From a virus, in IMG/VR virus record IMGVR_UViG_3300026518_000052, positions 1-26,658 of that record: a DNA stretch of 26,658 nt; one strand, 5' to 3'. Of the stretch, positions 38-25,359 are shown in pieces. A model generated the notes under the pieces. That model saw only the letters and a list, made by a program, of their open reading frames with translations, did not search any database and had not been told where the DNA came from. Every line of letters begins with the position of its first letter. Position 1 is the first letter of the stretch. The position numbers and the translations under genes were made by a program.

Positions 38-328
38 ATGAAAAAGACATTTTTGACACTGGCTGCGCTAACAATGATCGTTCAGGCTAACAATTATGAT
101 GACAAGATGTGTTCATACCACCTTGCAAAGGCTTTATCGTATGCTGAAAAAGGCAACTATGCTGCGGGTGCAGGGGATAGCGATCTGTTTGGTTTGTACT
201 ATAAGATCAGCGGTGAACATCTCATTGATGTCAAGCAGTATTGCAACCTTGACGCAAAAACGCTGAAAAAGGTAAACAAACATATCAAAAGAGCACAGGA
301 AATTGCACGCAAATACGCAAAACATTAA
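38..328 (+). CDS. Small secreted (periplasmic) hypothetical protein
   Basis: This 96-residue protein has a clear Sec-type signal peptide: two lysines after the start methionine, a hydrophobic core, and a likely cleavage site after VQA at residues 15-17. The mature part is about 79 residues, largely helical in appearance, with cysteines at about 25 and 69 that could form a disulfide in the periplasm. An AAAGGA ribosome binding site precedes the ATG. I do not recognise a family. It opens a co-directional operon of small phage genes, with the next gene 19 bases downstream. A secreted phage protein expressed with early genes could act in superinfection exclusion or envelope modification, but nothing in the sequence proves this. 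Confidence 0.75.
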   Translation: MKKTFLTLAALTMIVQANNYDDKMCSYHLAKALSYAEKGNYAAGAGDSDLFGLYYKISGEHLIDVKQYCNLDAKTLKKVNKHIKRAQEIARKYAKH

Positions 329-347
329 AATAATACAAAGGACTAAC

Positions 348-506
348 ATGGAAAAAACAGTAAAAAGAATTGCGGTCACACCGCATGTTAAGAAGCTCAT
401 GGATATGGCGACAAAAAAGGTGATGGTAGAAACACAAGGTGAGGTACAGACCATCAACGATGCATTGAAACATATCCTTGAATACTACTTGGAAAAGGAT
501 GAGTGA
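348..506 (+). CDS. Small ribbon-helix-helix-like protein
   Basis: The protein has 52 residues from the ATG at 348, which is preceded by AAAGGACTAAC, the same binding-site style as the gene before it. An upstream in-frame ATG at 303 lies inside the previous gene and lacks such a site. The layout resembles the Arc/CopG fold: a short basic beta-strand (KRIAVT), a helix, a turn, and a second helix (TINDALKHILEYYL). These proteins bind DNA as dimers and usually repress transcription. The spacer between the helices is longer than normal, so the assignment is moderate. Its TGA overlaps the ATG of the next gene by one base, indicating translational coupling. Confidence 0.65.
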   Translation: MEKTVKRIAVTPHVKKLMDMATKKVMVETQGEVQTINDALKHILEYYLEKDE

Positions 507-604
507 TGATAGATCGTATCACTGCTCTATTCACCATATACGCCATAATATTTCTTTTATTCTTTGTCATGGCTGCCGGTGTAAAACTTGGTTGGATGTT
601 GTAA
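506..604 (+). CDS. 32-residue single-pass membrane protein
   Basis: A very short frame starts with the ATG that overlaps the previous stop codon (TGATG) and ends at TAA 602-604. It encodes about 32 residues dominated by one hydrophobic segment (roughly residues 8-25), with a charged N-terminus (MIDR) and a C-terminal lysine. It fills the gap exactly between two convincing genes. The coupling and the membrane-like composition are the only evidence that it is real. No function can be assigned. Confidence 0.5.
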   Translation: MIDRITALFTIYAIIFLLFFVMAAGVKLGWML

Positions 605-620
605 TAAAAAAGGAGAAAGA

Positions 621-1088
621 ATGATAAACCCTATATTTGAAGTGGAGAGATTTGTCAAAGATAGAAAGCTTGACAAACAGAAATTTGACGAAATGCAAGT
701 ATGCACGAATATCCTTGAAGAGATGTTCGAGATGCTTGGATACGATGTACCAAAAGAAGAACGTGACTGGCTCATGATGGACTTTATGCGCTTTATTGAC
801 AGACAGGTAGAGGGGTGTGTAGCACGGAAAAAAGAGAACCACACAGATGATGACAGGATCGATGCACTATCAGATATCCGTGTATTCTGTATTGATGCAA
901 CTATGAAACTTGGCTATGAGCCTAAATGCACATTGAATGAAACAGCCAAGGAGATCAACAGCAGAAAGCAAGACCCTGAGCAAGCCAAGAACTGGAAAGA
1001 CGGTGACAAATGGCAGAAAGACAGGAACCAAGACCCGTCAACACTTTATAAAGCAGACTATGACAAATGCAAGATAAAGGAGGATTAA
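621..1088 (+). CDS. MazG-like nucleoside triphosphate pyrophosphohydrolase
   Basis: The protein has 155 residues from the ATG at 621, preceded by AAAAAAGGAG. It shows the metal-binding pattern of the all-alpha NTP pyrophosphohydrolases (MazG / phosphoribosyl-ATP pyrophosphatase superfamily): an EExxE helix (EEMFE, about residues 31-35) and a later DALSDI helix (about 87-92). The C-terminal part (NETAKEINSRKQ followed by a lysine/aspartate-rich tail ending with PSTLYKADY) resembles that of phage PRA-PH-like enzymes. Such enzymes hydrolyse NTPs or dNTPs to monophosphates, and in phages they are thought to adjust nucleotide pools or blunt (p)ppGpp signalling. The spacing between the two acidic helices is longer than in minimal MazG domains. 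It belongs to the early operon, and the next gene starts two bases after its stop. Confidence 0.7.
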   Translation: MINPIFEVERFVKDRKLDKQKFDEMQVCTNILEEMFEMLGYDVPKEERDWLMMDFMRFIDRQVEGCVARKKENHTDDDRIDALSDIRVFCIDATMKLGYEPKCTLNETAKEINSRKQDPEQAKNWKDGDKWQKDRNQDPSTLYKADYDKCKIKED

Positions 1089-1090
1089 AT

Positions 1091-1543
1091 ATGCACAGTC
1101 ATGCTAATGAAATTAGATACTGGGCAGAACATCCAGACGGAACTAAAGTATGGCTTAAACATCAGAACTCTGATTGGACTTTGCTTGAAGACTACGAAAT
1201 AAATTGGAGATTAAAGAAAGGCATTTATATAGTAGATGATGAATGGGCAGAGCTAAGAATTGCACAGGCGGACAGTAAACAGTTGCAATATCTGTCATTC
1301 AGCGGTAAATGGATAGATGACACTCTTGATTATAACAAGATGACATTAATGTTGAAAAACTGGCGTATCAAACCTGAAAACCCTGTATATGAGTATCAAG
1401 TAATCTACAGATTGACAAATAGCAATGTATACAACTTGACATGTGAATATTATAAAGACGAAGAAGAGTTTAAAAGGACTTCTAGTGAATTTGTATTCGT
1501 TGAACTGTATGAACCAAGCAAAAGAGAAAGAAACATGAAATGA
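1091..1543 (+). CDS. Hypothetical tryptophan-rich phage protein
   Basis: The protein has 150 residues from the ATG at 1091, behind the strong site AAAGGAGGATTAAAT. It is rich in tryptophan and tyrosine. It contains the block YWAEHPDGTKVW near the N-terminus and NWRIKPENPVYEYQV near residue 95. The WRIKP signature occurs in many small phage proteins of unknown role that seem built from short beta repeats. There is no signal peptide or membrane segment. It sits in the same operon as the MazG-like gene. I cannot assign a function. Confidence 0.7.
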   Translation: MHSHANEIRYWAEHPDGTKVWLKHQNSDWTLLEDYEINWRLKKGIYIVDDEWAELRIAQADSKQLQYLSFSGKWIDDTLDYNKMTLMLKNWRIKPENPVYEYQVIYRLTNSNVYNLTCEYYKDEEEFKRTSSEFVFVELYEPSKRERNMK

Positions 1544-1602
1544 ATAAATACATAGATACAAAATTGATTTCATTCTGAAGATTTAAATATAAAGGAGTAA
1601 AA

Positions 1603-1860
1603 ATGGAGATTAAAACAAAATACAACATAGGAGATACTGTATATCTGTTTATTAATGGTGAGGTATATGAGGAAAAGATAAAGTCAATAGATATACGTAT
1701 AGGCAAAAACAGAAGTAATATATTTACCGATATAGAAATACATTACGATGTTTCAAAAATTCATCTTCCGGGATGGACTAAAGACAAATATGCAGAGAAT
1801 TGTCTATTCAACTCTAAAAAAGAGATAGCTTACTATCTGTATAATAAGATAATGCAATAA
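1603..1860 (+). CDS. Small hypothetical protein, beta-rich
   Basis: The protein has 85 residues, and its ATG follows AAAGGAGTAAAA. The N-terminus (KYNIGDTVYLFINGEVYEEKI) reads like a small SH3-like beta barrel, of the kind seen in many phage proteins of unknown role. The rest alternates beta strands with a short C-terminal helix. A perfect TATAAT box lies inside its 3' end (1840-1845) and may drive the structured RNA that follows. No function can be assigned. Confidence 0.65.
   Translation: MEIKTKYNIGDTVYLFINGEVYEEKIKSIDIRIGKNRSNIFTDIEIHYDVSKIHLPGWTKDKYAENCLFNSKKEIAYYLYNKIMQ
1838..1845 (+). promoter_or_regulatory. Candidate -10 box driving the structured RNA
   Basis: TGTATAAT contains a perfect TATAAT hexamer at 1840-1845, inside the last codons of the preceding gene. 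Transcription would begin near 1852, about 25-30 bases before the first stem of the hairpin array. There is no obvious -35 box, but other promoters in this window also lack one. The base composition is AT-rich, so a chance match is possible. Confidence 0.4.
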
Positions 1861-1874
1861 AAAGGAGATCATAA

Positions 1875-2107
1875 CTCTACAGAGCCAACTTAGGTTGGTT
1901 CGATGGAGCCATGCTCCCGTGGGTCAGGTTAGGTAGGTTGAGTCTCTACTCGCCCATGTGATATGCAGGAATAAAAAACTTCAAAGTGACATTTGTTAAG
2001 ATACCTGTATATCAGCAGCAGAGGTTTTTAGAAAAAATAGACTGCTTCTATTGGACGTGTTTTCCTCTGCTGCATCAAAGAGAGTTTTGAAAGAATTTCT
2101 CTCTTTG
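1875..2107 (+). ncRNA. Unrecognised structured RNA or long structured leader
   Basis: This gene-free stretch is tiled with consecutive stems. Stem A is 1882-1889 with 1894-1901 (8 pairs, one G-U, loop TTAG). Stem B is 1905-1909 with 1913-1917 (5 pairs). Stem C is 1918-1924 with 1952-1958 (7 pairs, two G-U), enclosing a small stem GAGT/ACTC at 1940-1951. Stem D is 1959-1969 with 2004-2014 (11 pairs, one G-U), enclosing a second stem at 1979-1985 with 1992-2000. Stem E is 2015-2024 with 2064-2073 (10 perfect pairs), enclosing 2036-2040 with 2048-2052. Stem F is 2076-2084 with 2099-2107 (9 perfect pairs). Stems B, C, D and E abut with no unpaired base between them. An unattached AAAGGAG lies just upstream (1861-1867). 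No T-run follows the last stem, so it may be the leader of the methyltransferase mRNA. It does not match tRNA, tmRNA, the SAM riboswitch or a hammerhead by eye. Confidence 0.6.
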
Positions 2108-2144
2108 GTTGAACTATATTTGAATGGTTGAATAAAGGAGAGAT

Positions 2145-3452
2145 GTGAAAAAAGTGAAGATCGCCACTGTGTTTAGCGGTATCGGTGCCCCTGAACAGGC
2201 AGCGAGCAGGGTATTTAAAAAAGTAAAACTTGTTTTTGCATGTGAAATAGACAAATTTGCAAGAAAAAGTTTTGAAGCGATATATAACATAAACCCAAAA
2301 CGCTTTCATACGGATATTACAAAAACAGACTTTTCAAAATATCGTAAAAAAGTGGACATCCTTATTGGAGGAAGCCCATGCCAATCGTTCAGTATTGCAG
2401 GGGGGCGTGCCGGTTTTGAGGATACAAGGGGTACACTGTTCTTTGATTTTGCACGGTGCATAAAAGAGTGTCAGCCAAAATATTTCATATTCGAGAACGT
2501 CAAAGGTATTGTCAACCATGACAATGGCAAGACGCTTAGTGTTATACTTTATGTATTCAATGAACTTGGATATGCAATAACTCTTGACATATTGAACACT
2601 AAAGACTTCGGTGTACCACAGAATAGAGAGCGTTTCTTTGTTATAGGCAAAAGGAAACATAAACAAACATCAATGCCTAAAATGAAAAATGGAAAATTGC
2701 TAAAAGACAAAATGTGGAATGCGTTTGTTGGAAAAGGGTTAAAATGGTTTGATGCATATAAGTTCCCCACACCGATACCGCTCGAAAAACGCCTAAAAGA
2801 TGTTCTCGAAGATGATGTTGATGAGAAGTATTATTTGAGTGAAAAAGCAATTAAAGGCTTCATCCATCACACAAACAGAATGCAGGAGAGGGGGAATGGT
2901 TTTAATTTTTCTCCAACTTTAGGCGAGTGTGTAGCATCGAGCATCACCACAAAATCAGGGACAAGACCTTGCGATAATTTTATTAAAGTCATAGGGGAAC
3001 TCGACATAAAAGGTAACGACCGGATCAAGAGAGTGTACGGTGATGATGATGTAAGACCTGCATTACAAACAATGCAGGGTGGCAATAGAGAGCCAAAGAT
3101 ACTTGTGAAAAGTGCTACGAAAAAAGGCTATGATGAGGCAGAATATGGTGACAGCATAAATCTTAGTGTTCCAAATAGTAAGACACGAAGAGGTGGGGTC
3201 GGTAAACAGGTTTCACAGACACTTGACACGTCATGTAATCTGGCTTTTTTAGGAGATAGAATAAGAAAGCTCACACCGCTTGAATGTTGGAGGTTACATG
3301 ATTTCCCCGATGAAGCGTTCAATAAAGCGAAAAATGCGGGATTGAGTGATACACAGCTTTACAAGCAGGCAGGAAACAGCATGAGTGTAAATGTCATCGA
3401 ATTATTGTTTAAAAATATCAAAAAGGACATGGAACATGAAAAACATACTTAA
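2145..3452 (+). CDS. C5-cytosine DNA methyltransferase (Dcm-like)
   Basis: The enzyme has 435 residues and transfers a methyl group from S-adenosylmethionine to carbon 5 of cytosine in a specific DNA sequence. The ordered family motifs are all present: motif I FSGIGAPEQA (about 10-19), the catalytic motif IV GSPCQSFSIAGG with Cys79, motif VI FENVKG (about 116-121), motif VIII QNRERFFVIG (159-168), a variable target-recognition region (about 190-370), and motif X QAGNSMSV (408-415). The start is GTG 2145 behind AAAGGAG. An alternative GTG at 2154 is in frame. No restriction endonuclease lies next to it, so it is probably an orphan phage enzyme that protects phage DNA from host restriction. It follows the hairpin-rich region, which may control it. 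Its 3' end overlaps the next small gene by 17 bases. The target sequence cannot be read from the protein. Confidence 0.93.
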   Translation: MKKVKIATVFSGIGAPEQAASRVFKKVKLVFACEIDKFARKSFEAIYNINPKRFHTDITKTDFSKYRKKVDILIGGSPCQSFSIAGGRAGFEDTRGTLFFDFARCIKECQPKYFIFENVKGIVNHDNGKTLSVILYVFNELGYAITLDILNTKDFGVPQNRERFFVIGKRKHKQTSMPKMKNGKLLKDKMWNAFVGKGLKWFDAYKFPTPIPLEKRLKDVLEDDVDEKYYLSEKAIKGFIHHTNRMQERGNGFNFSPTLGECVASSITTKSGTRPCDNFIKVIGELDIKGNDRIKRVYGDDDVRPALQTMQGGNREPKILVKSATKKGYDEAEYGDSINLSVPNSKTRRGGVGKQVSQTLDTSCNLAFLGDRIRKLTPLECWRLHDFPDEAFNKAKNAGLSDTQLYKQAGNSMSVNVIELLFKNIKKDMEHEKHT

Positions 3453-3561
3453 AAACATTGGTTGGATAGACCATAAAGGCAACTGGGATAAAATGGAGAT
3501 ATTTGTGGATGTGGTGATCGTTATATGCACAATCTCTCTGCTGTTATGGGGGTTAACATGA
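3436..3561 (+). CDS. 41-residue membrane protein
   Basis: A short frame starts at ATG 3436, inside the end of the methyltransferase gene behind AAAGGACATGGAAC, and ends at TGA 3559-3561. That stop overlaps the ATG of the next gene. The product has a charged N-terminal half (MKNILKNIGWIDHKGNWDKM) and one hydrophobic C-terminal segment (about residues 22-40), so it is a likely inner-membrane peptide. Ribosome binding site, overlap on both sides and membrane character support it. Its function is unknown. Confidence 0.55.
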   Translation: MKNILKNIGWIDHKGNWDKMEIFVDVVIVICTISLLLWGLT

Positions 3562-4052
3562 CAAACATAGACATGAACGTGATCTTCTATGCCATACTGC
3601 AAAAGAGCATGGAGGATGCAGGCATGCTAAATCCAGATGCAAGCCCAAAGAAACCAAAGAACTTTGAGGATGAGGATTTAGTAAAAATGTACGAACATTT
3701 CAGTAAATGTGTGGTTATGTACGATACACACGAATTGATAGCACAAACAAAGCGTTTCAATGAGAGGGCACAAAAACTCCATGATGACTACCTGCTGAAC
3801 ATGCTATTAATGGGGCTGTTCATGATGGACACATGGCTGCACAATGATGCAACGACTTATGAAAAAAATATACTATTGCCAAAAGTGACACGTTCTATAA
3901 AACGTGCAAGAAAAACGGCACACGATGAGGTTATCATGGACAGCGTAATAGCCGCATCGAATATGTACCGAGTGCTCAACGGACAACCGGAGCTAACCAA
4001 AGAAGTAAGAGAAGCGAGGAGAAAAGCATGGAAATTAAAGGTCAAAAACTGA
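3558..4052 (+). CDS. Hypothetical helical protein
   Basis: The protein has 164 residues from ATG 3558, coupled to the preceding small gene by ATGA. An in-frame ATG at 3525 would extend it by 11 residues but lies inside that gene. The sequence is almost entirely helical and charged, methionine-rich in the middle (DDYLLNMLLMGLFMMDTW) and strongly basic at the C-terminus. There is no transmembrane segment of convincing length and no family I recognise. The C-terminal ARRKAWKLKVKN tail could contact nucleic acid, but this is speculation. Confidence 0.7.
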   Translation: MTNIDMNVIFYAILQKSMEDAGMLNPDASPKKPKNFEDEDLVKMYEHFSKCVVMYDTHELIAQTKRFNERAQKLHDDYLLNMLLMGLFMMDTWLHNDATTYEKNILLPKVTRSIKRARKTAHDEVIMDSVIAASNMYRVLNGQPELTKEVREARRKAWKLKVKN

Positions 4053-4150
4053 TGAAAGGTGTATATATGCTTGATGGGCAGGTGATCCTTGCCAAATCGT
4101 TCAAAGAAGCTATTAAAATATACATGAAAGGAGAAAAACATGGAAATTAA
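4028..4150 (+). CDS. 40-residue hypothetical protein
   Basis: A short frame is embedded between two overlapping genes. ATG 4028 is preceded at good spacing by AGGAG, which is better support than the later in-frame ATG at 4052 that overlaps the previous stop. The product begins MEIKGQKLMKGVYMLDGQV and ends in a basic helix with GEKHGN. It overlaps the preceding gene by 25 bases and the following one by 11. Its first four residues (MEIK) are the same as those of the next gene, perhaps from duplication of a translation start. Function unknown. Confidence 0.5.
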   Translation: MEIKGQKLMKGVYMLDGQVILAKSFKEAIKIYMKGEKHGN

Positions 4151-4454
4151 ACATCCATTGATAAACAAAATTGACAGCGAACATTATGACAGTAAAGGAA
4201 AGCCTGCTATTGCCGATTTTGAGGACAAATATACCGTAGGAGAGCTTATGGTATGGGCTAAGATCACAAAAGCCAAATATGAACATCCTGCACGTGCTGC
4301 AAAGGGTCAGGTTGAAGCGGATAAAAGGAAAGCAAAAACATACGGTGATTATTATGAGTTTTTGAGTGAGATTGCCAAATACTCTTTACCTATAAAAAAC
4401 ATGGTTGCAAGCAAGGCATACGCAAAGCTTGGTGTTGAGGTGGTTTATGAGTAA
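4140..4454 (+). CDS. Hypothetical protein, possibly a divergent DUF3310-like phage protein
   Basis: The protein has 104 residues and its ATG follows AAAGGAGAAAAAC. The order of features (an early EHYDSKGKPAIADFEDKY block, a middle helix, then DKRKAKTYGDYYEFL) is reminiscent of the small phage family DUF3310, which typically has an HY...I.. start and a lysine-rich AxxYL helix. Identity is too low to be sure. There is no membrane segment or signal peptide. It overlaps the next gene by 8 bases and belongs to the same early operon. The role is unknown. Confidence 0.65.
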   Translation: MEIKHPLINKIDSEHYDSKGKPAIADFEDKYTVGELMVWAKITKAKYEHPARAAKGQVEADKRKAKTYGDYYEFLSEIAKYSLPIKNMVASKAYAKLGVEVVYE

Positions 4455-4638
4455 AAAAGAATACCTTATGACATCAATGGTAATATTTTCAACACTACTG
4501 TTATCATCGGGATTTGCCGGTTTTCTTATTGCAAAAGAAGATTACCCAAATGGTATCATCTTTGCAAGTCTAACATCAATACTGACGTTATTCTTTGCCG
4601 ATGCAATATCAAAGGCGTTCAAGTATGATCACGAATAA
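4447..4638 (+). CDS. Small two-helix membrane protein
   Basis: The protein has 63 residues from ATG 4447, preceded by GAGGTGGTTT. There are two hydrophobic segments (about residues 10-27 and 36-52) separated by a short charged loop (AKEDYPNG), giving a helical hairpin in the inner membrane. The length and topology recall class II holins, but the lysis genes are elsewhere in the late operon, so this is more likely an early membrane peptide of unknown role. It overlaps the preceding gene by 8 bases and the next by 14. Confidence 0.6.
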   Translation: MSKKEYLMTSMVIFSTLLLSSGFAGFLIAKEDYPNGIIFASLTSILTLFFADAISKAFKYDHE

Positions 4639-4834
4639 GACACTTTACGGTACAGATGACGTGCCGCCCATACCAAAAGATATCGCACAAAAACGCATCG
4701 ATCTGTTGTATTCTAACCTGCGACGTGAGGTGAATAAACCGTTCAAAGAGCAGAACGCCTATTTACAAGCACAGATACTCAAAGCGATGGGGTTTTGGAA
4801 AAAAATGGCGAACATGGAGGATGCAGGGTTATGA
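4625..4834 (+). CDS. Small hypothetical protein ending the early operon
   Basis: The protein has 69 residues from ATG 4625, in an overlapping arrangement with the membrane protein gene before it. It is predicted to be helical, with a proline-rich N-terminal segment (DDVPPIPKDI). I recognise no domain. Its stop codon overlaps the stop region of the opposing late gene by 6 bases, so the two operons meet with no space for a separate terminator. The ribosome binding site is weak, which suggests translation coupled to the preceding gene. Confidence 0.55.
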   Translation: MITNKTLYGTDDVPPIPKDIAQKRIDLLYSNLRREVNKPFKEQNAYLQAQILKAMGFWKKMANMEDAGL

Positions 4835-16019: not shown

Positions 16020-16313
16020 CTATTTTGTTTTTGTGGTAGTTGTATCGGCTGTAGTGGTGTTCACCTCTACAGCCGAATATACATCGATATTGCCGCAGTC
16101 ACGGCTATAATTACCGCATTGCACCAAAATAGAGCCATCCCCAAGCTGTGTGTAGCTTAAACCAACGTTAGACCCGTTATCCGCCTGCACAAGCACAGTA
16201 TTACCGTCCGTTGGTGTTGCGGGCGGAACAGGTGCTTCCTTGACATATGTGGTTTCACTTCCGCCACACGCTGTAAAAACAAAGGCGACCATCGCCATAA
16301 GCAAATATTTCAT
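16020..16313 (-). CDS. Small lipoprotein
   Basis: The protein has 97 residues, with ATG behind AGGAGTTAAT. A signal peptide ends in the lipobox FTAC at residues 13-16, giving a mature protein of 82 residues anchored by a lipid-modified cysteine. It contains a proline/threonine linker (APVPPATPTDG), a short beta-rich core with two cysteines (LVQCGNYSRDCGN), and a threonine/lysine-rich tail. It is the last gene of the lysis cassette, so an outer-membrane spanin subunit is one option. Superinfection exclusion at the envelope is another. I recognise no family. Confidence 0.7.
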   Translation of the reverse strand: MKYLLMAMVAFVFTACGGSETTYVKEAPVPPATPTDGNTVLVQADNGSNVGLSYTQLGDGSILVQCGNYSRDCGNIDVYSAVEVNTTTADTTTTKTK

Positions 16314-21072: not shown

Positions 21073-21121
21073 ACTTTAAGTTCTTAAAGTGTATCATTGA
21101 TGAAACACAAAGGATGATACA
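21073..21121 (+). promoter_or_regulatory. Promoter, inverted repeat and start-occluding hairpin of the endonuclease gene
   Basis: Two inverted repeats lie side by side. The first is ACTTTAA (21073-21079) with TTAAAGT (21084-21090), a seven-base operator-like element. The second is TGTATCAT (21090-21097) with ATGATACA (21114-21121), eight pairs that include the first base of the ATG start and enclose the AAAGGA ribosome binding site. The 5' arm contains the likely -10 box TATCAT (21092-21097). A transcript started there begins near 21104 and lacks the 5' arm, so only read-through transcripts could fold the blocking hairpin. Confidence 0.6.
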
Positions 21122-22980
21122 TGGGAAAAAAACTGACAACAGCAGATTTTATCGAACGTGCAATAAAAGTGCATGGGGATAAATATGATTACAGCAGGGT
21201 TGAATATGTGAATAACAAGCAAGCAGTGAGCATCATTTGTCCAAAACATGGTGATTTTACACAAATACCAAATGATCATTTGCAAGGTTGTGGATGCCAA
21301 AAATGTGGGAAATCGAACATGGCAATAGCAAAAATAAAAAAATCACAAAAAAAATTTTATGAATATTGCCATCAGAGAAATGACGGGTATGATTATTCAA
21401 AAGTGGTGTTCAAAGGGGTTCACACAAAAGTAACTATTATTTGTCCAAAACATGGTGAATTTAAACAAACCCCACATCAACATATGATTGGTTCCGGTTG
21501 TCAAAAATGTGTACCGAATTATAAGAAAACAACAGCAGATTTTATCGAACGTGCAAGAAAAGTGCATGGGGATAAATATGATTACAGCATGGTTGAGTAT
21601 GTGAATAGTGCTTCACAACTCACAATCACTTGCAGGGTTCATGGTGATTTCACACAAAAGGCGAGTGATCATTTGCAAGGTTGTGGATGCCAAAAATGTT
21701 TTGGTAACAAAATACCATCAACTGAAGAGTTTATAACGAGATCAAAAAAAATACACGGTAACAAATATGATTACTCAAAAACCAAATACACAAAAGGACA
21801 AGAAAAGGTAACTATCATTTGTCCAAAACATGGTGAATTCAAACAAAAAGCTGTTTCACATTCTGTCGTTGGGATGGGTTGTCAAAAATGTGCAATCGAT
21901 CAAATTAAGGTCAAACTTGCATTAACCACAAAAGAGTTTATCAAGCGAGCAAAGAGAGCACACGGTGATAAGTATGATTATTCACAGGTAAACTATATCA
22001 ATTCACAAACACCTGTGAAAATTATATGCAAAAAGCACGGGGCATTTATGCAAAAACCGAATGGTCACTTAGGCGGTCATGGGTGCACCAACTGCACTGC
22101 TTCTTACAGCTATATGGAAGTTGAACTACTTACATTCATAAAAAACCTCATGGGTAATGAGAATGTGATACACAGTGATAAAACACTCATAGCACCGTTT
22201 GAACTTGATGTTGTGATACCATCACTAAAAATAGCTTTTGAGTTCAACGGCATATATTGGCATAGTGAATTGCATGGGAAAGACAAAGATTATCACGCAA
22301 ATAAAACAAAGTTGTGTCAAAAGGCGGGATACAGACTTATTCACATTTGGGAAGATGACTGGGTGAATAAAAATGCACGCGTTAAATCATTCATACGACA
22401 CACACTTAACAAAAGTTTGATGTCTAACAAAATATATGCAAGGAAATGTGACATCAGGGAGATCACAAAGATTGATGCAGAGCCGTTTTTGAATGAACAT
22501 CACATTCAAGGATACAGCATTGGTACAGTGCATATAGGGTTGTACCATGATAATACATTGGTGGCTGTAACGACCTTTAGGAAGGGTCACAAAAACACAA
22601 AGAATAAGGGGTCTTTTGAACTCATACGCCATGCAACCAGCGGTACTGTGATTGGGGCATTGGGCAAGGCTGTAAAATACTTTGCAAAAAATCACTGCCA
22701 AAAAATATTCACTTACTGTGATATATCGATGTTTGACGGGAAAAGCTATGAGAAAGCGGGGTTCATCAAAACAGGTGAATTAAAACCCGATTATCAATAC
22801 ATTGTCAATAAAAAAAGAGAGCATAAATTTAATTGGAGGTTAAAGAGGATATATACAGAATACCCCGAATGCGAGGGTATGACGGAAAAAGATGCAATGG
22901 ACTATCTTGGCTTCCCACGGGTATGGGATTGTGGCAAGGTGAGATATGAATACAAGATCAATACAAAGGATATAAAATGA
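21121..22980 (+). CDS. Homing-endonuclease-like protein: five zinc ribbons, Vsr-like nuclease, GNAT-like domain
   Basis: The protein has 619 residues and is transcribed against the late operon. The first 325 residues contain five repeats of about 60 residues (F.xRAxKxHGxKYDYSxVxY.....V.I.C.xHG.F.Q...H..G.GCxxC), each with Cys-His-type zinc ligands and probably DNA binding. Residues about 330-440 match the Vsr-like (EDxHD) nuclease fold used by phage homing endonucleases: FELDVVIPSLKIAFEFNGIYWHSE, then HANKTKLCQKAGYRLIHIWEDDW. Residues about 450-575 form a GNAT-like domain common in phage proteins (HHIQGYSIGTVHIGLY, ELIRHAT, YEKAGF). Such genes spread by cutting alleles that lack them. Repeats 1 and 3 are almost identical in DNA sequence. 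It couples by ATGA to a small regulator gene. Confidence 0.8.
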   Translation: MGKKLTTADFIERAIKVHGDKYDYSRVEYVNNKQAVSIICPKHGDFTQIPNDHLQGCGCQKCGKSNMAIAKIKKSQKKFYEYCHQRNDGYDYSKVVFKGVHTKVTIICPKHGEFKQTPHQHMIGSGCQKCVPNYKKTTADFIERARKVHGDKYDYSMVEYVNSASQLTITCRVHGDFTQKASDHLQGCGCQKCFGNKIPSTEEFITRSKKIHGNKYDYSKTKYTKGQEKVTIICPKHGEFKQKAVSHSVVGMGCQKCAIDQIKVKLALTTKEFIKRAKRAHGDKYDYSQVNYINSQTPVKIICKKHGAFMQKPNGHLGGHGCTNCTASYSYMEVELLTFIKNLMGNENVIHSDKTLIAPFELDVVIPSLKIAFEFNGIYWHSELHGKDKDYHANKTKLCQKAGYRLIHIWEDDWVNKNARVKSFIRHTLNKSLMSNKIYARKCDIREITKIDAEPFLNEHHIQGYSIGTVHIGLYHDNTLVAVTTFRKGHKNTKNKGSFELIRHATSGTVIGALGKAVKYFAKNHCQKIFTYCDISMFDGKSYEKAGFIKTGELKPDYQYIVNKKREHKFNWRLKRIYTEYPECEGMTEKDAMDYLGFPRVWDCGKVRYEYKINTKDIK

Positions 22981-24904: not shown

Positions 24905-24914
24905 ATCTAATCCT

Positions 24915-24943
24915 TTGGTAACTTTGAGTTACCAATTATATCA
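24915..24943 (-). promoter_or_regulatory. Extended -10 promoter with overlapping inverted repeat before the fibronectin gene
   Basis: On the minus strand TGATATAAT (24935-24943) is a perfect extended -10. Directly after it TTGGTAAC and GTTACCAA (24928-24935 and 24915-24922) form an eight-pair inverted repeat around a five-base loop. It covers the expected start of transcription and reaches into the AAAGGA ribosome binding site. It could be an operator or a leader hairpin in read-through mRNA. Confidence 0.6.
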
Positions 24944-24993
24944 TAAAAAATCGGATGAGTGTTATTCTCTTAAGATGTAATTAAGTTACACTG

Positions 24994-25002
24994 TGTTACA
25001 AT
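24994..25002 (+). promoter_or_regulatory. Extended -10 promoter of the tandem-repeat membrane protein gene
   Basis: TGTTACAAT is an extended -10 (TGnTAnAAT-like, five of six matches). It is flanked by GTTACA direct repeats 10 bases apart (24985-24990 and 24995-25000) and overlaps an inverted repeat TGTAA/TTACA (24976-24990). Transcription would start near 25009, about 23 bases before the ATG. It faces away from the fibronectin promoter, so the two share one regulatory region. Confidence 0.5.
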
Positions 25003-25031
25003 ACATTAAATAAACACATAAAGGATGCACG

Positions 25032-25337
25032 ATGATACTGTTAATAGGAATATTGGTTATTTGGGTATTGATCAATGTAGCGATAGGTTATTTTGAAGCA
25101 GATGAAAAATATGAAAAATATGGAAAATATGGAAAATATGGAAAATATGGAAAATATGGAAAATACGAAAAAGAGTTCGATGAACTGTATATACTCGATG
25201 ATGGTGAACTGTACGACACTAAAGCAATGTATATAGCATTGAGAGGAAAATATGGAAAAAGTATGGAACAGGCTATCGCCATAATGATAAATTACTATGA
25301 GGTAGAGATAGATGGATGGGAGATAAAATACTATTGA
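25032..25337 (+). CDS. Membrane protein with lysine-tyrosine tandem repeats
   Basis: The protein has 101 residues on the strand opposite the late operon, with ATG behind AAAGGATGCACG. An N-terminal transmembrane helix (about 1-20, MILLIGILVIWVLINVAIGYF) is followed by a seven-unit tripeptide repeat (two EKY and five GKY, residues 25-45). The acidic C-terminal part has EFDELYILDDGELYDTK and a helical GKYGKSMEQAIAIMINYYEVEI. The gene is flanked by its own promoter and a likely bidirectional terminator, so it is an independent accessory unit (moron-like) inserted between capsid and fibronectin genes. It might act at the envelope of the infected or lysogenic cell, but function is unknown. Confidence 0.65.
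   Translation: MILLIGILVIWVLINVAIGYFEADEKYEKYGKYGKYGKYGKYGKYEKEFDELYILDDGELYDTKAMYIALRGKYGKSMEQAIAIMINYYEVEIDGWEIKYY
25104..25166 (+). repeat. 9-bp tandem repeat (seven units)
   Basis: Two units of GAAAAATAT are followed by four of GGAAAATAT and one of GGAAAATAC, all in frame within the membrane protein gene. The unit length is a multiple of three, so copy-number changes by slippage would lengthen or shorten the protein without a frameshift. Confidence 0.9.
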
Positions 25338-25353
25338 CCCCCAGTAAGGGGTC
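25336..25353. terminator. Probable bidirectional terminator hairpin
   Basis: GACCCC and GGGGTC pair perfectly around a CAGTAA loop in the 22 bases between two convergent stop codons. The plus side continues with GTTGTCTT and the minus side with AATAGTATTTT, so neither has a strong T-run, but the position argues for a terminator serving both the membrane protein gene and the capsid gene. Confidence 0.65.
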
Positions 25354-25359
25354 GTTGTC

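Follow-up and report, generated by a model that had tools for sequence, protein, structure and literature searches.

The locus described here raises the question whether the gap in front of a phage DNA methyltransferase gene encodes a structured RNA and, if so, which role this RNA could play. The analysed window (26,658 bases) corresponds to one entire IMG/VR virus record from an uncultured phage. The region of interest (1861-2144) is a 284-base gap flanked by an 85-aa phage gene (1603-1860) and the methyltransferase gene (2145-3452), and it is located inside a run of genes from 38 to 4834 that all point in one direction. The original prediction had described it as gene-free and as an unknown structured RNA. 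The first part was borne out: stop codons are present in all six frames, no coding signal spans the region and an antisense ORF of 93 aa (2028-2309) is without PHROG match. The AT skew of 0.04, vs about 0.2-0.3 in the flanking genes, is as expected for a non-coding stretch. The second part is plausible in the light of the analysis below.

Two short sequence features were seen at the borders of the gap. A Shine-Dalgarno-like AAAAAGGAGAT at 1864-1868, located just after the upstream gene's stop codon, precedes no usable start codon, and the same bases form the outer arm of the first hairpin domain. A three-codon ORF (ATG GTT GAA TAA, 2124-2135) with no obvious Shine-Dalgarno of its own ends right before that of the methyltransferase gene.

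Folding energy and hairpin domains

Dinucleotide shuffles served as null model for the folding z-scores, which ranged overall from -4.7 to -6.2 depending on the stretch and the run. Folding of 1850-2150, the comparison proposed with the original prediction, resulted in a z of -4.71 with none of 100 shuffles as good. For 1861-2144 two shuffle runs yielded -6.2 and -5.4, and the core (1862-2108) reached -85.6 kcal/mol (z -5.3), lower than 1000 of 1000 shuffles. Perfect Watson-Crick stems of at least 9 bp occur twice in the region vs a mean of 0.075 in shuffles. Along the record, windows over 1861-2144 were among the most structured of the 330 windows tested, and the other gaps longer than 200 nt (455 nt and 251 nt; n=2) are not structured beyond shuffles (z between -0.4 and -1.5). 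The hairpin packing of 1861-2144 is real and well beyond chance. Two outcomes named beforehand as refuting the prediction, a folding energy at shuffle level and a coding signal across the region, were not observed.

Two observations concern other parts of the record. The strongest z of the scan, -4.9, belonged to a + strand window starting at 16021; here the 3' end of a - strand gene (16020-16313) carries two hairpins, 15981-15989/16024-16032 and 16045-16054/16067-16076. The unstructured 455-nt gap (24905-25359), which extends from the capsid gene to the next gene, holds a + strand ORF of 101 aa (25032-25337) without Pfam match.

The predicted + strand structure consists of four domains and a fifth hairpin. 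Domain 1 (1864-1917; pair probabilities 0.85-1.0; -22.5 kcal/mol when folded alone) is composed of nested GGAG/CUCC, CAU/AUG and CUCUA/UGGAG pairings and an 8-bp tip, GAGCCAAC/GUUGGUUC, with the loop UUAG; the tip (1882-1889/1894-1901) has a pair probability of about 1.0 and its outward extension of 0.85-0.96. In domain 2 (1918-1958) a 7-bp outer stem, CGUGGGU/GCCCAUG (1918-1924/1952-1958; 0.84-1.0), contains two G-U pairs and encloses a weak inner stem (1932-1937/1945-1950; about 0.5). Domain 3 (1959-2014) is formed by the 11-bp stem UGAUAUGCAGG/CCUGUAUAUCA with one G-U pair (1959-1969/2004-2014; 0.81-1.0). The perfect 10-bp stem GCAGCAGAGG/CCUCUGCUGC of domain 4 (2015-2073; -22.8 kcal/mol for the domain alone) pairs 2015-2024 with 2064-2073 at a probability of 1.0, and an inner stem of 6 bp connects 2036-2041 with 2047-2052. 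Hairpin 5 (2076-2107), a candidate anti-sequestor, is closed by the 9-bp stem CAAAGAGAG/CUCUCUUUG (2076-2084/2099-2107), which has pair probabilities of 0.97-0.99 if the RNA ends before the Shine-Dalgarno sequence. Finally, the minimum-energy structure of 1852-2115 includes a weak 4-bp stem CAAU/GUUG (1855-1858 with 2108-2111), which might join the hairpins in one multi-branch junction.

The stems proposed originally were all found at their positions, and five of the six main ones have a high pair probability, including the two long perfect stems of domain 4 and hairpin 5. The exception is the 5-bp second stem, GGAGC 1905-1909/GCUCC 1913-1917, which is nearly unpopulated (0.04) and a minor alternative, because the preferred partner of GCUCC is the GGAG further upstream (1864-1867), so that the hairpin of domain 1 extends over it. 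The linker-free junctions at 1917/1918, 1958/1959 and 2014/2015 are real and separate the four domains. Runs of at least four abutting helices were observed in 17 of 1000 shuffles (1.7%); the abutment is thus unusual, yet less extreme than the folding energy.

The methyltransferase gene and its Shine-Dalgarno sequence

The gene said to follow the last stem is indeed a C5-cytosine DNA methyltransferase gene on the + strand (2145-3452, GTG start at 2145, 435 aa; PF00145, E 6.7e-77; phrog_116) with the Shine-Dalgarno sequence AAGGAG at 2136-2141. Its closest solved relatives in the PDB are the HhaI/HaeIII methylases, and its nearest genome match, from Campylobacter concisus, has an identity of 43%, which is too low to assign a host.

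The window as a whole shows site avoidance: GGCC occurs once vs about 58 expected and CCWGG not at all vs about 35, and GCGC (21 vs 51 expected) and GDGCHC (23 vs 42) are reduced (1-26658). This suggests earlier encounters with host restriction systems that recognise these sites; the phage has its own cytosine methyltransferase as well. The record also encodes a 619-aa endonuclease (21121-22980; phrog_559) with repeated zinc-finger-like segments and similarity to MTES_1575-type nucleases, which stands alone on the + strand among structural genes of the - strand, an arrangement expected of a free-standing homing endonuclease.

With regard to transcription, the TATAAT pointed out upstream of the region is present at 1840-1845, within the end of the preceding gene, but as a possible -10 box it has no recognised -35, and the scan detected no two-hexamer promoter in its vicinity. 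A + strand scan limited to sigma-70-like pairs found none upstream, and shuffles contained more promoter-like matches than the scanned stretch. Since 1861-2145 is also free of terminator-like sites, the structured region is likely co-transcribed with the methyltransferase gene.

The 3' end of the region can adopt two mutually exclusive folds. The arm CUCUCUUU (2099-2106) can pair either with 2076-2084 in hairpin 5 or with AAAGGAGAG (2135-2143), which holds the Shine-Dalgarno sequence. The second helix, a candidate sequestor (2098-2143; 2098-2106 with 2135-2143), buries AAAGGAG with pair probabilities of 0.92-1.0 in folded 1852-2200 and is favoured over the hairpin-5 state by 1.9 kcal/mol. When transcripts of increasing length were folded, hairpin 5 was dominant to about base 2140 and was displaced by the sequestor once 2143 was out.

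Strong sequestration as proof of a switch had to be rejected, however. The two-state geometry with one helix burying the Shine-Dalgarno sequence was also present in 214 of 2000 shuffles (10.7%). Opening of the Shine-Dalgarno costs 4.6 kcal/mol vs a mean of 5.1 for shuffled upstream sequence; 175 of 300 shuffles were at least as costly to open, and similar values were obtained at other genes of the record. Because this geometry appears in 11% of shuffles and the burial is no stronger than chance, a switch is treated here as a hypothesis. An RNA thermometer was rejected as well: the energy gap between the two states is almost temperature-independent from 20 to 50 C, and the predicted pairing of the Shine-Dalgarno drops only from 0.98 at 20 C to 0.96 at 50 C.

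Search for relatives

Comparison of the whole window with Rfam (release 15, gathering threshold) matched no family, and at a relaxed threshold (E up to 10) 1840-2170 gave only three chance-level matches (E 1.5-8.7), none of them to a riboswitch, SAM and SAH classes included. ARAGORN reported 0 tRNA or tmRNA genes in the window and, with loosened thresholds, low-scoring matches only. This agrees with the absence of tRNA, tmRNA and SAM riboswitch similarity noted at the outset.

Searches for homologues gave the same picture. Blastn of the region against phages and plasmids produced only chance matches of 20-35 nt. Pattern scans of IMG/VR with the stem sequences returned 0, 1, 19 and 2 matches, all of which looked chance-like by the score of a window-derived covariance model. 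The best of them (623-672 of its locus) carries the same 10-bp arms, GCAGCAGAGG/CCTCTGCTGC, with a short extension, CGTGT-TTCCTCTGCTGC, which agrees at 7 of 8 positions on one arm; it is located inside a small ORF of a GC-rich phage contig and was discarded as probably a coincidence. A scan of bacterial genomes with the first hairpin yielded 0 matches. In 397 Campylobacterota genomes blastn detected short matches only and the single-sequence model had no match, although an empty answer from such a search shows little.

The model of the element was also applied to loci that carry relatives of the methyltransferase or the portal, with the upstream sequences of about 90 methyltransferase relatives, and found nothing there. 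In most of the methyltransferase relatives that were examined (34-53% identity among those listed) no more than tens of bases separate the start from the preceding gene, so this gene family does not have the element as a conserved leader. IMG/VR searches with the portal, the capsid and the upstream gene revealed no close phage relative. Absence of homologues is therefore weak evidence against a function, since the phage itself lacks a close relative by portal or capsid protein. The element is an orphan candidate, a single unreplicated sequence, and at the same time a solid structural candidate.

Possible functions and known systems

The most likely single reading, which we hold at somewhat less than even confidence, is that the region is a cis-acting structured leader, that is, an intercistronic 5' region on the mRNA carrying the methyltransferase gene. 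The four abutting hairpins would fold while the RNA is made, and hairpin 5 would form next and hold CUCUCUUU off the Shine-Dalgarno. After transcription of 2135-2143, CUCUCUUU could re-pair with AAAGGAGAG and bury it. The methyltransferase might thereby be made later or at an adjusted level, through the near-balanced two-state fold alone or through a ligand or protein on the upstream hairpins. Structure beyond chance and two near-equal states were computed; transcription, regulation and any ligand of the leader are what we infer. The earlier suggestion of a methyltransferase leader is favoured by the position directly upstream on the same strand and by the lack of both a terminator before the gene and a convincing promoter. 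Control of the gene by this leader is a hypothesis, as the burial of the Shine-Dalgarno and the bistable geometry stay at shuffle level. The leader reading is further opposed by the equally strong z of the - strand, by the methyltransferase relatives examined, which have no comparable leader, and by the lack of any homologue and hence of covariation.

A rival reading, which we consider rather unlikely, is a trans-acting phage non-coding RNA. The hairpins 1855-2111 would then be a discrete RNA, transcribed from the TATAAT at 1840 or processed from the operon transcript, with host or phage targets, and the methyltransferase gene would be a mere neighbour. Some 30 bases separate the end of the structural core from the Shine-Dalgarno, and the core can be closed by pairing of 1855-1858 with 2108-2111; the switch part is not beyond chance, and the element is absent from methyltransferase relatives. 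However, neither a two-hexamer promoter nor a terminator-like site was found, and none of the collections searched holds a free-standing RNA relative.

It is improbable that the region is an intercistronic element for mRNA stability or processing, such as an RNase or antitermination site, that sets the levels of the upstream vs the downstream gene with no switch at the Shine-Dalgarno; stable and abutting hairpins between co-oriented genes and the unexceptional burial of the Shine-Dalgarno agree with it, but no known antitermination family was matched in Rfam.

Comparison of the strands bears on the remaining alternative. Most stems are inverted repeats that come close to perfect, which is why the z-scores are alike on the + and the - strand of the region. 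Of the two folds, that of the + strand is deeper; it retains domain 2 with its G-U pairs, whereas the - strand fold loses this domain, and the comparison leans weakly to + strand RNA. An element acting as DNA through inverted repeats (a replication origin, a packaging or recombination site, or protein-binding palindromes) would explain the similar z-scores and the several perfect Watson-Crick stems, but it has little probability given the dependence of domain 2 on G-U pairs, the lack of an iteron-type direct-repeat array in 1590-2200, a GC skew without a switch at the site and the location inside a run of same-strand genes.

In addition, it is possible, though we regard it as doubtful, that the abutting hairpins, perhaps arranged around a multi-branch junction, represent a new class of phage structured RNA, which would either act in trans or respond to a signal and so time the synthesis of the anti-restriction methyltransferase.

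Large structured RNAs encoded by phages have precedents in GOLLD and ROOL, RNAs of unknown function that form nanocages, are often located near tRNA islands and are included in Rfam (PMC12286853). The region resembles them as a candidate for a structured phage-encoded RNA, but it has a length of only about 250 nt, no tRNA nearby and no Rfam match. RNA thermometers are also present in phages (PMC11182007). They share with the leader reading the predicted pairing of a Shine-Dalgarno upstream of a phage gene, but the predicted pairing here barely changes from 20 to 50 C.

In the cIII mRNA of phage lambda two alternative structures reportedly set translation initiation (Altuvia et al. 1989, listed in the references of PMC11182007). 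In our case, too, two near-equal folds are predicted, and in one of them the ribosome-binding site of a phage gene is hidden; the differences are the 200-nt hairpin-tiled region upstream, the different gene and a switch that is predicted, without statistical support. In leaders of the riboswitch type a structured domain precedes two alternative helices, an anti-sequestor and a sequestor, in front of the gene. Although it has no Rfam riboswitch match and no identified aptamer, the region shows the same predicted layout. To protect their DNA, phages need their anti-restriction methyltransferases early enough. If such a gene is indeed preceded by a structured leader, this would mean timing of counter-defence at the level of RNA, and the leader could represent a new class of phage RNA.
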